Shown here piece after piece: positions 7,306 through 32,311 of a stretch of DNA of 64,000 nucleotides (position 1 is its first letter; each line of letters starts with the position of its first letter). The DNA is from Synechococcus sp. AG-683-C23 (GTDB lineage Bacteria > Cyanobacteriota > Cyanobacteriia > PCC-6307 > Cyanobiaceae). The notes beneath the pieces were generated by a model. That model made no database searches. It was not told the DNA's origin and saw only the letters and a list, made by a program, of their open reading frames with translations. A program made the translations under genes and the position numbers. The stretch is from positions 62,001 through 126,000 of the forward strand of contig QCVD01000001.1 in the NCBI GenBank assembly GCA_003208835.1, given 5' to 3'.

Positions 7306-7945
7306 AAAAACAAACAGAAGGTTGAAGAAAAGAAAGAAATAAACAGGCAAATAGCAGCAAGAGGGAATAGGACACGCTATTAACTGCGATTATAAATTCA
7401 AAAAACAACAAAATACCTAAAAAACTAACTGGAAACGAAAGGTAAGGAATCATACTTAAAAACCAAGAAGAACTATAAGATATATTCTAGGCAAAGGAAG
7501 GAAGAAGAATAAGAGAGTTAATGATAATGCAGACGCTAAAGCTGGAAACAACTAGCAGTACGTCATAAGGGCCATCGTTAGTAGAAGGTACACAAGTCAT
7601 GCGCAGAAGATAATAAAATATAACAACTGTTGACCAAATCATAGTCTATCAAGACAAATAAATAGATATCCATAGTGATAATTACTAAAGAGAATGGAGT
7701 CATAGACTCTAAAGCCGATAGCAGCAAAGGTAGATTAAATACAACAAGAATAAGAGCTGATTGCAAAAATTTATATAAGAACAAAAGACTTTAATTAGAG
7801 AAATCTCAGAGCCTACCTGTCTCTCAGTTCTCCCCGGAATACAGCCAATAGAGGGATCATCTATCCAGCTCAATCGACGCCCCAAAAAACATAAGCTATT
7901 TTGCCTTTCCCATCCAAAATAGTGAATCGAAGGAAACGGCAAGTA
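7306..7945 (-). pseudogene. hydrophobic membrane-protein remnant, possibly a Wzy/O-antigen polymerase-like relic
   Basis: Several short overlapping hydrophobic minus-strand frames (IDYDLVNSCYILL; STNDGPYDVLLVVSSFSVCIIINSLILLPSF; MIPYLSFPVSFLGILLFFEF), interrupted by stops and frameshifts. Confidence 0.3.
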
Positions 7946-8374: not shown

Positions 8375-9313
8375 TCAGGAGGAACTTAGTTCAAGGATAT
8401 TACTTACAGCCTTAGTGGTAATTCTTACATTTTCGACGAATACCTTATGATCCACTTGCTGAGACTTCCGGGCTTGACGTGCGAACTCCTGTATTGATCT
8501 TTTGATTGACAAGCTCTCTTCAAGGATGGTGGTTGAGGCTAAGATGGAATTTTCAGAAACCCGTAACAATTTAAGCTTGTTATTACTAAAAATCAGCCTC
8601 GAATCCTTCGTGATAACTTCTATATAGGGACTCACCCTAGTTAATCCCCAGCTTGCAACACCTGAAATGTATACCTCATCAGTAAAACCAGACAGAATAC
8701 ATGTGTCAGCATCCCTGTTAGCAGCCATAAGCCCTAGATCAATATTTTCAAGTATTTTTACTCCAAATAATTCTACGAAAACACTTAATAAATGACTAGC
8801 AAGAGTATGACTAATTGCAAATTTATCATACGCTCTCCAGGAGTTTAGAAAAGACTCAGTGCCAGAAATATTCTTAGTTATCATTGCTCTGACTATAATT
8901 AATCCTTTATTCCCAGATTCGTTTACAAAATCACCAAGGGCTTTAACTACTTTGCTGTCTCTCATGTGGTATCCGATCTTTATTCTCCCCTTAAACACTT
9001 CTCCCAAGCGCATTAAATCTATTTGATGCGAAGGATCATTAAAGCCGGGTTTTTCGATATATATATAACCGGTATAATGATTCGCCTCTAATAGTTTTAG
9101 GTAATGAAGATGGGATTCCGTAGGCGAAGCAATTATTACAAGATCACTATCCAGGAAAACTTTCATATCATTGAAAACATCAATATTATCGGTGAAAGTA
9201 GGATGATAGAATAATATATTGTCTAATTCATTCATTTCCTTAATAAATTTATGATGAAACCTGGCGTGATTACTTTTCCCAATTATACATATTTTCATAG
9301 CTATAGAGGACAT
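8375..9313 (-). CDS. Gfo/Idh/MocA-family oxidoreductase
   Basis: MKICIIGKSNHARFHH N-term, DLVIIASPTESHLHYLKLLEANHYTGYIYIEKPG. Confidence 0.75.
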   Translation of the reverse strand: MSSIAMKICIIGKSNHARFHHKFIKEMNELDNILFYHPTFTDNIDVFNDMKVFLDSDLVIIASPTESHLHYLKLLEANHYTGYIYIEKPGFNDPSHQIDLMRLGEVFKGRIKIGYHMRDSKVVKALGDFVNESGNKGLIIVRAMITKNISGTESFLNSWRAYDKFAISHTLASHLLSVFVELFGVKILENIDLGLMAANRDADTCILSGFTDEVYISGVASWGLTRVSPYIEVITKDSRLIFSNNKLKLLRVSENSILASTTILEESLSIKRSIQEFARQARKSQQVDHKVFVENVRITTKAVSNILELSSS

Positions 9314-10704: not shown

Positions 10705-11721
10705 TTAGTTACTGTGCAAATCAAACGTGGCATCTAGTATGCTGATATAAGAATCTAAAGATGAGTTAAGGATAGAAGATAGGCAAGTATCACAGTGGAA
10801 ATTTGTAAATTTTGAAGAAATATTAGAAGCTAAGATGTATTGTGCCACAGAATCATGAGTTCTCAAAGAATCAAGGTCATAATCATAATTATTAATATTA
10901 CCATAATTTGAATTATAACGGTTGTGCCCAGTCATCATCGAAAACCCGAATGCATATATTTTTGAAGACAGTGAAAAGCTATTATTATAATATAGCTCAG
11001 CTAAAATAATAGGGAGACCCATAGGAGAGAATAAGGGACCAGAAAGGCACTGATGGCTTAATGAAAAAAGCTTTGTGGATAAAGATAAAGGAAATCTACT
11101 AAAAATATTATTTCTAAAAATCGCACCCGAAATAAATTTATTTGTTAGAAGGTATTGAATATCAGAAGCATTACGCTTAGCGACTGCATTATTATAAAAA
11201 GAGAAAATATAATTTGTAGAATTCAACGATCCAAGATCTCGTCGCCGATTTAGGTTAGATAACAAAATGAGATTAGAATCAGAGTTTGTATATGACTTCA
11301 AGTCAAAATTTGCGAGATCAAGTTGGGGACCTAAAATAACAGTTGGTAGCCCAAAAAAATTTGAGAAATCCATGGAAGGTTCTGAATGGCTTACTGAAGA
11401 ACTAAAACTTCTAAACTGTGGATAAATCGAAATAAGACTTTTGGCTAAAAAACATTGTGAAATGTAACTCTCATAACGGTTGAGGGAATTTAGATATGAT
11501 GAAAATGATGATACGGATCTCGCAAGAAGAACTTGTCGTAATAATGCCGAGGTTCTAGTGAAACCGAATAAATATGAGATTGGCCTGGACAAAAAAATTA
11601 GTGTCAATAAAAACCTAGATTGCTCAAACGGAGTATATTTAAGCAGCAATAATAAGTGAGACTTTGAATGTAAAAATAGAGTGAGAACAAAGACTCTTAG
11701 AAAAAACAAATAATGGTTCAT
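10705..11721 (-). CDS. orphan protein in nonulosonic-acid operon; possible glycosyltransferase
   Basis: Intact 338-aa ORF starting 3 bp downstream of the GT2 gene stop; TVILGPQLDLANFDL, SPMGLPIILAELYYN, YAFGFSMMTGHNRYN, LRTHDSVAQYI; family not recognised with certainty. Confidence 0.6.
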   Translation of the reverse strand: MNHYLFFLRVFVLTLFLHSKSHLLLLLKYTPFEQSRFLLTLIFLSRPISYLFGFTRTSALLRQVLLARSVSSFSSYLNSLNRYESYISQCFLAKSLISIYPQFRSFSSSVSHSEPSMDFSNFFGLPTVILGPQLDLANFDLKSYTNSDSNLILLSNLNRRRDLGSLNSTNYIFSFYNNAVAKRNASDIQYLLTNKFISGAIFRNNIFSRFPLSLSTKLFSLSHQCLSGPLFSPMGLPIILAELYYNNSFSLSSKIYAFGFSMMTGHNRYNSNYGNINNYDYDLDSLRTHDSVAQYILASNISSKFTNFHCDTCLSSILNSSLDSYISILDATFDLHSN

Positions 11722-15914: not shown

Positions 15915-16160
15915 TGATAGATGAGGTCTGACTGGTTCTTCCCTCAGATATTCCTAATTGCCTTGATGGTGCGTTCTGTCTACCTTTATAGAGTTAGTTC
16001 AACCTTAACCAATGTCACGCCGGACTATTGCAATTGCTGGGGCATAGTCTGTGCTTGCACTTGGATCTCCGTTGATTACTTGTTGCACGAACCCATTGAC
16101 AATCAGTATTTCAATCAAGGAGTAGAGAAAATTGATGAAGGCAATTATCGAGGAGCAATT
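15915..16160 (+). repeat. direct repeat copy A (5' part of TPR gene region)
   Basis: Shares identical 44-mer CTGACTGGTTCTTCCCTCAGATATTCCTAATTGCCTTGATGGTG (15928-15971) and extended similarity with 30072-30316. Confidence 0.85.
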
Positions 16161-16636
16161 GATGATTGGAGTAAGGCAATAGAGATTAATCCACAGGATG
16201 CCGATGCCTACTACAATCGTGATATTGCCAAGACTAATTTAGGTGATTACCAAGGAGCAATCGATGATTACACAAAGGCAATAGAAATTAATCCTCAGTT
16301 TGCTTTTCCTACTACAATCGTGGTGTTAACAACGATTATTTAGAAGATTACCGAGGAGCAATATCTGATCTGAACAAGGGAATTAAAATTAATCCGCAAC
16401 TTGCAGATGCCCATACCAGCCGTAGTGGTGCAAAACTAAAATTAGGTGATAACCAAGGAGCACTGAATGATGCTAATCAGTAAATCGACATTAATCCAAA
16501 AGACTCCATTACCTATATCAATCGTGGTATTGCAAAGGAATTGATAAATGATCTTGAGGTTGCCTATCGTGATTGGAGAAAAGCAGTAGATCTTGGCAAT
16601 CAAAGCCCTGCTGAATGGGTAAAAAAGGACTGTTAG
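15921..16636 (+). pseudogene. TPR-repeat protein pseudogene
   Basis: Repeated YYNRDIAKTNLGDYQGAIDDYTKAIEINPQ-type units; frame lost near 16300 and an in-frame stop at ANQ*IDINPKDS. Confidence 0.75.
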
Positions 16637-16769
16637 GTATTGGTTCTCTAATCACATCATCGTTTCTTTTAGCTTCTTCTAAGTCAATTTATTGAAACAC
16701 CAAACCTCAATCACTGCAATTGATTTGAGCTAAACGGACACTAATAGTAAAGAGAAGAAGCAAATCTTC

Positions 16770-17020
16770 CCTCACTGGTTTGGAAACCAGTCAAAAGGGA
16801 TTAGCCGCTGTGAATGCCAAATACGGAGTAACTCGCGGTTAGCCAGTCGGACGCCAAGGAACTGAGAACGTCAAGGCAGCTTAGCTAGAACCAAGAATCC
16901 GACCCTTTGCGTGACGTGATGGAACAGCGGCACTGCTAACCACTCCAAGATGAAATGACATCAGGAAGTAAAAGAGGTCTAGTACCAGCGGAAGCTGGTG
17001 CTGGAACCTACCTTTTGACA
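16770..17020 (+). ncRNA. candidate structured RNA (orientation assumed +, upstream of ORF 17117)
   Basis: Complementary segments: 16790-16798/17011-17019 (GTCAAAAGG/CCTTTTGAC), 16804-16811/16924-16931 (GCCGCTGT/ACAGCGGC), 16846-16851/16898-16903 (GTCGGA/TCCGAC), 16868-16873/16912-16917 (ACGTCA/TGACGT); local hairpins 16774-16791 and 16984-16999 (GGAA loop); no long ORF. Confidence 0.45.
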
Positions 17021-17116
17021 TCCAGATGAACTAATACTTAGATCCATTTACCAGGACGAGATACCAGTAGGTGGTGGAAAAGTTTCCGCGCGGAAACAAA
17101 TTGACTAATTAAACAA

Positions 17117-17815
17117 ATGAATATCAAAGACTTAATTGTACCCAAACTTGAAGACGGACAACACGATCAACGTTTCATCAGCTTAGCAACTCAAATACAG
17201 GAGAACATCTCCAAATCAACAATCAATGAATTGTATGAACTATGGCAAGAAACAAACCAACTAGAAAATAGATACGAACGTTCTGGACTTCGCTTTGTCA
17301 TCAGAATATTTCAAGTAGACATGGAAAAGTGGCAACGTAGTGCCTTCAAGAAAACAATTAGAGAAAGCCTCCTAAGGCTTGGGTTCAAAAATCCAAGGGT
17401 GTCTAAATTAATGGCTGCAGGAGAATACGTAGCTCAATACATTACTTTTGAGGAGTCAGAGTTCGGATACACACGCAAGGATCACGGCAAATACTTGGTT
17501 AACTTACGTGGGTACGGAGTGACTTCTCTATACCTACTTAGTTGTATGGACTGCAATGGTCACAGATTTGCCGAAGAACATTTCATACAAAAAGGAAAAC
17601 ACCTGAGCACGCGTGAACTGGAAAAGCTCAAACAACAGCATCCAAAATGGGGAGCCTTTGAGGACAAACAACGCGGTCATTCGTTTGAAACACAAGACGT
17701 AGAACAACGTCCAGGAGCCTCTGAGGCAAACCCAGCAACTGTCAATACACAACTTTGTAATCGAAGATTTAACAGCCCTACAGCCTGCTGCAGACGCCGC
17801 AGAAAGAAGAACTGA
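17117..17815 (+). CDS. hypothetical accessory-region protein, probably frameshifted at the C-terminus
   Basis: Plausible N-term 180 aa (MNIKDLIVPKLEDGQHDQ...SKLMAAGEYVAQY...LSTRELEKLKQQ); coding-like sequence continues in another frame to about 17970 (ELKTWVYELVSLTQSIDWNEVQDLPGLQEILAPVSNQ). Confidence 0.5.
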   Translation: MNIKDLIVPKLEDGQHDQRFISLATQIQENISKSTINELYELWQETNQLENRYERSGLRFVIRIFQVDMEKWQRSAFKKTIRESLLRLGFKNPRVSKLMAAGEYVAQYITFEESEFGYTRKDHGKYLVNLRGYGVTSLYLLSCMDCNGHRFAEEHFIQKGKHLSTRELEKLKQQHPKWGAFEDKQRGHSFETQDVEQRPGASEANPATVNTQLCNRRFNSPTACCRRRRKKN

Positions 17816-17983
17816 AGACATGGGTATATGAGCTTGTCTCTCTTACTCAATCAATTGATTGGAATGAAGTCCAAGATTTACCAGGGCTTCAAGAGATACT
17901 CGCACCAGTTAGCAACCAGATGATGCTTGCTGCTCACCTCGCTATTCCTAGACAACCCATCCTCCAATAACAACAAGACACCT

Positions 17984-18381: not shown

Positions 18382-18747
18382 TTAACACTTGGACTCCAAA
18401 TATTCAGCAGCATCTTTATCGCTAAGATCTGCTCCTTTTCTCCAATCATTAAAGGCACCCTCAAGATCATTTACCGATTCTCTAGCAGAACCGCGAAAAT
18501 GGTAGGCATAGGCATCCTGAGGATCAATCTCTATAGCGTTATTGTAATCAGTAATTGCTCCTTGATAATCTTCTAATTGATACCTTACAATGCCACGAAA
18601 AGTGTAGGTATCGTAAGACTTCTGGCTAATGATCTCTATTGCTTTATTGAAATCATCCATTGCTCCTTGATAATCTTCTGCATCATATTTCTCTACTCCT
18701 TGATCAATATACTTATCTGCTAATGGGTTTGCATTTACAGCAATCAC
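18382..18747 (-). CDS. TPR-repeat protein, apparently N-terminally truncated paralog
   Basis: YIDQGVEKYDAEDYQGAMDDFNKAIEI...YQLEDYQGAITDYNNAIEIDPQDAYAYHFRGSARESVNDLEGAFNDWRKGADL. Confidence 0.7.
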   Translation of the reverse strand: MIAVNANPLADKYIDQGVEKYDAEDYQGAMDDFNKAIEIISQKSYDTYTFRGIVRYQLEDYQGAITDYNNAIEIDPQDAYAYHFRGSARESVNDLEGAFNDWRKGADLSDKDAAEYLESKC

Positions 18748-30892: not shown

Positions 30893-32311
30893 TCAGTTCC
30901 CGTTATCGGCAAATAGATCGACTGGTTTCGACTCCAATCGTTTTTTGCCCATTTCAGGCAATGTTAATTCGGTGCCTTTACGGCGTAAGTTCAGCCGTGT
31001 ATATGTGCGTTGCGTCTCTCGTACATCGTGACCAGCCATTTCAGCGACTTCCATGACAGGTGTGCCTTTCATTAGCTGATCTTCGATAAAGGTGCTGCGC
31101 ATTGAATAGATAGTGTAGGGATGCGGTGAGAACCTGTGTCCATTGAGTTTGTCTTTGAGTTTGTTCCTGACTTCAACCCAGCTCTTGGCAATGTATTTGT
31201 ACGAGAAGGCTCGCCAGTTGTAGTGAGGATTGCCGAAGACAAGTGAGTCTTTCGTGACTTGAACGTTTCTCAAGTCTCTTTCAATAATGTATTCATCAAG
31301 CCACTGCTTCCATCGACGTAGCTCTCTTGCTTGATTCACCGGTATCTCTCTTGCCTGCTGGGTTTTGCTCCTAATCGTCCTGACATAGGCCACTTCCCAA
31401 GACACCTTCTCTCCTTTGCTATTGATCCGACCTTCATCAACGATCTCAATCTGCTTCCACTTCATTTTCATCACCTCTTCCGGACTCATCCCGCTGTTCT
31501 TGGTAAACAGAATGAAGTGATGGAACATATTTCTGTAGAACCAACCTGCAGCTTTTGGATGGCTAGTTAGTGACTCCTTCTTCCATACATCGCGGACGTA
31601 ATTAACGATAATCTTCCAGTCCTCAGGATTGATTGCAGGGTTTTTCATCAGGTCTGTTTGCCTGATGACTGTTCGTGAGATTAATGGTGTTTGTTTGTCC
31701 AGCAACAGGCTGCTGTCCAGGTATCTGTTTTTGACCAGATAGTTCCTGCACCACTCTTGGATGGTTCCTAGCTCTTGCCTGCGTCCAAGCGGGGTAGATG
31801 CACTGCGATAGATCGGATAGCCCTCAAAGGTCGTGGCGTCGATCTGTGCAATGCGTGTTAATCCCTTGCTCTCCAGGTATGGGATCAAGTGACGTCGACA
31901 GAGACCGGCCTTTTTGTCGACTGTGTCTCTCCTGATCAGACCGGAATCAGCTTTCTCGTATTCCAGGCGGAGCCAGTTTTGGACTGCTTGGCTAATTGGG
32001 ATTGATCTGGGTTTTCGGCTGACAACCCTTCCAGAGAAATCGTCGCGCTTTGGAGCTTCTGATTCGTTGCCTTTTGGTGTGTCCCACAGGAGTGACAGGT
32101 CAGGATTTTTGTTCAGCTCGAAAGCAACCTCAGTAGCTGCTGCCTCGGCCTCATCCATGTTCGACACACCTTCAATGCGGCGTGTCATGTAGTTCTTGGT
32201 CCCCTTGATCAGCTCTCTGTAGAAGAACTGACCTGCTGACGTGCCACTGGCGTACAGAACGACGGAGCCTCTGCCGCCAAGCACCTTTCGTTTGTCGGCA
32301 ATCTTTGGCAT
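30893..32311 (-). CDS. tyrosine recombinase / phage-type integrase
   Basis: IRSKTQQAREIPV (Lys hairpin), YSMRSTFIEDQLMKGTPVMEVAEMAGHDVRETQRTYTRL (R...H...Y box). Confidence 0.85.
   Translation of the reverse strand: MPKIADKRKVLGGRGSVVLYASGTSAGQFFYRELIKGTKNYMTRRIEGVSNMDEAEAAATEVAFELNKNPDLSLLWDTPKGNESEAPKRDDFSGRVVSRKPRSIPISQAVQNWLRLEYEKADSGLIRRDTVDKKAGLCRRHLIPYLESKGLTRIAQIDATTFEGYPIYRSASTPLGRRQELGTIQEWCRNYLVKNRYLDSSLLLDKQTPLISRTVIRQTDLMKNPAINPEDWKIIVNYVRDVWKKESLTSHPKAAGWFYRNMFHHFILFTKNSGMSPEEVMKMKWKQIEIVDEGRINSKGEKVSWEVAYVRTIRSKTQQAREIPVNQARELRRWKQWLDEYIIERDLRNVQVTKDSLVFGNPHYNWRAFSYKYIAKSWVEVRNKLKDKLNGHRFSPHPYTIYSMRSTFIEDQLMKGTPVMEVAEMAGHDVRETQRTYTRLNLRRKGTELTLPEMGKKRLESKPVDLFADNGN

Follow-up and report, generated by a model that had tools for sequence, protein, structure and literature searches.

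The window analysed here is a stretch of 64,000 nt of DNA from Synechococcus sp. AG-683-C23, with positions counted from its first letter. A conserved structured RNA is encoded at 16.74-17.10 kb of its plus strand, ahead of an open reading frame (ORF 17117). The features of the locus are listed below, with the strand in brackets.

16739-16756 (+): phage-type (T7/SP6-like) promoter-like motif CACTAATAGTAAAGAGAA, from an EM motif search
16774-16791 (+): hairpin hp1, 7 bp in the window, with a UGGA loop at 16781-16784
16802-16841 (+): helix P2, pairing 16802-16808/16835-16841 plus 16810-16811/16831-16832
16812-16814/16827-16830 (+): internal loop GAA/AGUA of P2, with inner CC/GG pairs beyond it
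16846-16851/16898-16903 (+): helix P3, enclosing P4
16862-16866/16880-16884 (+): helix P4, inside P3
16924-16931 (+): motif ACAGCGGC, recognisable in most relatives
16944-16954 (+): repeat R1, TCCAAGATGAA, in direct orientation with R2
16971-17015 (+): hairpin P6, tip at 16984-16999, from the thermodynamic fold and comparison by eye
17021-17030 (+): repeat R2, TCCAGATGAA, in direct orientation with R1
17044-17074 (+): hairpin B, CCATTTAC/GTAGGTGG, whose CAGGACrAG loop is conserved, before the ORF
17082-17097 (no strand): palindrome GTTTCCGCGCGGAAAC, parS/operator-like, just before the ORF
17117-17815 (+): ORF of 232 aa, homolog of a family of ~280 aa of unknown function

Genes for TPR-repeat proteins flank the RNA-ORF unit at 15921-16343 (+) and 18382-18747 (-), the first of which seems to run on in other frames past 16343, as if broken. 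At 30938-31894 (-) the window also encodes a tyrosine integrase (PF00589, E 2.9e-7), a relative of those found in RNA-bearing elements; it sits 14 kb from the RNA, and the two could possibly share one element.

An earlier note on this DNA had proposed a candidate new structured RNA, a proposal now strongly supported by covariation, by the absence of an Rfam family and by the presence of the RNA in 30 genomes. In a cmscan search against Rfam 15 (4227 families), HEARO and introns included, no match for the RNA was obtained either at gathering thresholds in the window or at E <= 10 in 16500-17150, nor at E <= 1 in eight relatives. The covariance models of group I and group II introns, a reading rejected on this ground, and those of GOLLD, ROOL, OLE and other large RNAs of Rfam were equally silent in the window and the eight relatives, and ARAGORN called no tmRNA. 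The sole above-gathering match in the relatives was an unrelated glutamine-II riboswitch in L034 (2846-2905, minus strand; RF01704, 58.4 bits).

The comparison with homologs, a check suggested at the outset, revealed extensive compensatory change. Covariation counts are based on a MAFFT alignment of 13 relatives that leaves out L052, where five helices spanning 16774-16903 have 97.4% of their cells paired and 24 of 27 pairs show changes on both sides; a hand alignment of 14 sequences including L052 has 372 of 378 cells paired. The covariation score reached 0.919 against 0.231 +/- 0.027 for shuffled data (0 of 500 shuffles attained it), and sliding the partners by 1-3 columns lowered pairing to 38% or less. 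Since the structure was derived from these very sequences, two controls matter. RNAalifold, run without a supplied structure, returned the same helices, with 26 pairs and double changes in 24 of them, and 33 covariance-model matches (32 distinct, including the 13 seeds) had 94.2% of cells paired, a figure that leans towards the model because this alignment is fitted to it. Double changes affect four of the five modelled pairs of hp1, all nine outer pairs of P2 (with pairing in 100% of cells for 13 sequences and 96.9% for 32), all six of P3 and four of the five of P4. P6 has approximate outer boundaries, and its tip reads GGCGGA(A)GCC-like in the relatives. Long variants with an enlarged 3' domain occur (L084, L085, L086, L091 and L098), as do matches without the usual 3' domain (L078, L079, L082, L093 and L100), and L087 (genome G223) has two copies of the 5' domain, at 8409-8537 and 11586-11715, ~3.2 kb apart around polymerase fragments.

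Folding energies point the same way: the shuffled-sequence control gave z -3.3 for 16752-17034, with none of 200 shuffles as good. The plus strand reached z -2.7 for 16765-17025, and the minus strand z -2.4, a near equality that makes energy alone indecisive and leaves the decision to the comparison with relatives. In the modelled pairs, G.U cells far exceed A.C cells (73:12), which identifies the plus strand as the RNA. This strand-specific wobble, together with the promoter-like motif just upstream, makes it highly improbable that the conserved elements represent a DNA-level structure, such as origin or recombination hairpins, a reading for which the direct repeats, the palindrome and the hairpins near an integrase module could be adduced. 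On this comparative evidence, 16774-16903 (+) forms the 5' domain of a structured RNA family conserved among Cyanobiaceae-type genomes, and we regard it as near-certain, on the same grounds, that the family is new.

The nested architecture with a pseudoknot drawn in the earlier note turned out to be wrong in part. All the complementary stretches that it named are present in the window (9 of 9, 8 of 8, 6 of 6 and 6 of 6 pairs). Three of its elements persist in the relatives: the 6-bp pair 16846-16851/16898-16903, which is P3, the hairpin 16774-16791, a 7-bp stem capped by UGGA with strong covariation, and, apart from its loop, the hairpin 16984-16999. On the other hand, the outermost 9-bp pair (16790-16798/17011-17019), which takes up bases of the conserved hp1, is reduced to 4-5 pairs out of 9 in two of the three near relatives, and the crossing pair 16868-16873/16912-16917, advanced as a pseudoknot, keeps 2-3 of 6 in all three. 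The 8-bp pair 16804-16811/16924-16931, which the four nearest sequences retain apart from one mismatch, competes with the better supported P2, with which it shares its 5' strand. The minimum-energy fold of the window contains this helix and not P2, but P2 is preferred because of the double changes at every one of its outer pairs, and the 8-bp pairing could be an alternative state confined to the clade of the window. Motif ACAGCGGC itself, for which no conserved partner was identified, pairs with 16804-16811 only in close relatives of the window. As to the hairpin 16984-16999, which the earlier note called GNRA-type, its stem holds (5 of 6 pairs in three near relatives), whereas GGAA shrinks to GGA in two of the three, so that its loop is not conserved as a GNRA. 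Helices that had been missed are P2 with its GAA/AGUA loop, P4 and the separate hairpin at 17044-17074.

A DNA search of 59 genomes recovered one copy, 81% identical and from the same genus, which immediately precedes a homolog of ORF 17117; between the two loci the RNA region has a mean column identity of 86% and the ORF proteins are 25% identical. With the covariance model (E <= 0.01), the RNA was detected in 30 of 398 genomes of the family (about one in thirteen) and in 11 of 59 genera, weak matches having possibly been lost to the stricter filters applied above 40 genomes; the weakest matches (L078-L082) retain part of the RNA only. A class-wide sample of 291 genomes yielded six matches, all within the same family, and none was found outside that cyanobacterial family among the genomes searched. 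A protein search and pattern scans of viral contigs turned up no true relative, and plasmid and phage records gave no match by DNA similarity. Non-coding RNAs of picocyanobacteria located in genomic islands are already known (PMC2518516, PMC7368042); a search of these two articles for element-linked RNAs gave nothing in the passages concerned that corresponds to the present one, of which an earlier report may still exist.

Usually the RNA is linked to integrative elements in which a tyrosine integrase and a T7-type RNA polymerase are encoded together with the ~280-aa ORF. Of the 398 genomes, 35 have the polymerase domain PF00940, among them 17 of the 30 in which the RNA was detected (Fisher 9e-13, an optimistic value because the genomes are related, physical linkage being the stronger evidence). 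RNA and polymerase lie on one contig within ~15 kb in 13 of these 17 genomes, the RNA always downstream and on the same strand, and at seven loci (L088, L089, L090, L092, L094, L099 and L102) the gap between them is ~25-175 nt. The two may be unlinked in the other four (G014, G168, G207 and G261), and the polymerase went undetected in 13 of the 30, several of these genomes being incomplete and several of the RNAs short or weak. An integrase is near the RNA in many loci. The genome of the window, 77% complete, has no match to PF00940, and the window copy is probably a remnant that lost its polymerase. These elements share a tyrosine integrase and Prochlorococcus/Synechococcus hosts with tycheposons and other picocyanobacterial integrative elements (PMC10187409), although the text of that article does not mention an RNA polymerase.

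Membership of a mobile element, which the earlier note had surmised from the RNA-then-ORF layout, is supported, but the kind of element is different. HEARO/omegaRNA (RF02033) is likewise a structured RNA in a mobile element with an ORF downstream; with cmscan, neither the window nor any of eight relatives gave a match to HEARO, the neighbours are an integrase, a T7-type RNA polymerase and the ORF instead of IscB or TnpB, and HEARO/omegaRNA was rejected. The remark that the downstream ORF shows no IscB features was correct, with no IscB/TnpB-type Pfam domain in ORF 17117 or its relatives. More generally, a self-processing ribozyme or a guide-type RNA (HEARO/omegaRNA, intron) at the end of the element would fit the complex fold, the conserved unpaired motifs and the mobile-element context. 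It is nevertheless very unlikely, given the lack of an Rfam match, the lack of any IscB, TnpB, reverse transcriptase or homing-endonuclease partner among the genes seen, and the fact that no complement of R1/R2 occupies a consistent position within 8 kb. GOLLD and ROOL are also large conserved RNAs of phages and mobile elements, but the present RNA is smaller, has another architecture and matches neither in Rfam.

An EM search of 20 upstream regions returned the consensus CCCnACTAaTAnAGAGAA, with a log-likelihood of 90.3 against 52.8-59.2 in six shuffles, and placed the motif 13-24 nt ahead of hp1 in most of them; we take this consensus to resemble the T7 and SP6 promoters. In a scan of 15 regions the motif starts at about -31 to -38 from hp1 in roughly half, and copies elsewhere in the elements are not enriched, with the exception of L091, which has four on the same strand. 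We infer that 16739-16756 is the promoter from which transcription of the RNA would start. A sigma-70 promoter for the RNA was not found by consensus scan, and TAATAG was dropped as a -10 box. Upstream of its RNA, L091 (genome G146) has an array of same-strand nACTTATACAGGGA-like repeats, either a promoter array or iterons, with degenerate relatives in L039, L042 and L044.

Protein searches of the genus and the 398 family genomes found ~20 homologs of the ORF, most with the RNA upstream, and 17 genomes have both RNA and ORF (Fisher 2e-18). This co-occurrence, and the position of most RNAs directly before an ORF homolog, would suit a cis-regulatory leader, that is, a long 5' UTR controlling the expression of ORF 17117. 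Such a role seems rather unlikely in view of L083, L085, L086 and L089, where no downstream homolog was detected, of L045, where an extra small ORF intervenes between RNA and ORF, and of L039, L040 and L042-L044, where the main RNA is missing before the ORF and hairpin B and the palindrome alone are kept. In particular, the RNA of L089 follows the polymerase without an ORF homolog, which argues that the RNA is not merely a leader; soon after R2 in this locus (~7570-7640), a hairpin followed by a T-run resembles an intrinsic terminator. Hairpin B and the palindrome, the latter differing in sequence yet placed alike in nearly all ORF homologs, probably serve the ORF itself as leader and operator.

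ORF 17117 matches no Pfam family above the curated cut-off, ParB included, and has no PHROGs match below E 0.01. Its structural model (mean pLDDT 77) found as top Foldseek match the ParB DNA-binding domain 6s6h, a non-significant hit (E 0.26, probability 0.69); in L027 the ORF has a ParA gene in its vicinity. The ORF of the window copy looks C-terminally truncated or frameshifted: its C-terminal end falls short, and a further part of its profile is matched in another frame (17773-17967).

The RNA also carries the twin repeats R1 and R2. R1 lies 165-184 nt after the start of hp1 and R2 229-277 nt (~410 in two long variants), and the two match within each RNA while differing between elements. 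Summed over 19 RNAs, the R1-R2 match score is 164 against a maximum of 132 in 20,000 permutations, which supports coupling, though not as an unbiased discovery test, because the compared segments were picked by eye around the repeats, in a manner that favours a high score. Moreover, near relatives (L026/L027, L096/L097 and window/L003) alter both repeats jointly. A C/D-box or K-turn reading was rejected because the repeat core is too variable. Repeats identical in each RNA and variable between elements, like a single recognition site present in duplicate, would suit a trans-acting RNA that binds an element protein or, with R1/R2 as seeds, target RNAs, and thereby serves element immunity, phage interference or packaging. 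The discrete RNA of L089, beside a polymerase and without the ORF, also speaks for this role, as does the result that neither a third copy nor a complement of R1/R2 recurs in a consistent position within 8 kb; against it, no target is known, and a trans role does not require the RNA to sit right after the polymerase gene and, in most cases, ahead of the ORF. We consider it somewhat unlikely in itself, but nearly as likely as an origin transcript, the leader being less so.

In phage T7, the phi1.1 promoters (phi1.1A/B) of the primary origin follow gene 1. A comparable layout, with promoter-like motif and RNA directly behind the polymerase gene, is present at the seven loci with short gaps. Common to both systems are a polymerase gene, a phage-type promoter or promoter-like motif, an untranslated transcript and then a small ORF; the differences are that the present element is an integrating one whose RNA shows strong covariation, and that T7 is not known to produce a long conserved structured RNA at its primary origin. 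Because of this parallel, an origin transcript is favoured, and by analogy the RNA may tentatively be assigned the role of an origin or maintenance transcript, although the origin model alone does not demand such strong folding. The proposed folded transcript serving mobile-element replication has a parallel in ColE1, whose RNA II is a plasmid pre-primer; ColE1 differs in that no sequence or Rfam match links the two, no counterpart of the antisense RNA I was seen, and a primer function is here putative.

The best explanation overall, with a probability of about 0.4, is that the element's polymerase makes a discrete RNA with an origin or maintenance role. The T7-type polymerase would initiate at the phage-type promoter just upstream and produce an RNA of ~280-300 nt, with hp1, P2 and P3/P4 as its 5' domain and P6, between R1 and R2, as its 3' domain. 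This RNA would serve as a folded pre-primer or origin RNA and R1/R2 as element-specific recognition sites, whereas the palindrome and ORF that follow might form a ParB-like partition or control unit. A bolder and doubtful extension is that R1/R2, in an element-encoded RNA with its dedicated polymerase, constitute an identity or incompatibility determinant, iteron-like but acting via RNA.

Through the present work the most abundant photosynthetic bacteria gain an RNA family that is proven by covariation and missing from Rfam 15; its tie to these elements offers a direct handle on why integrated elements retain a phage-type RNA polymerase. The matched twin repeats of the RNA are an unexplained signal of coevolution that can be tested and, if the last proposal were true, the R1/R2 RNA would be an identity determinant for a large group of cyanobacterial integrative elements.
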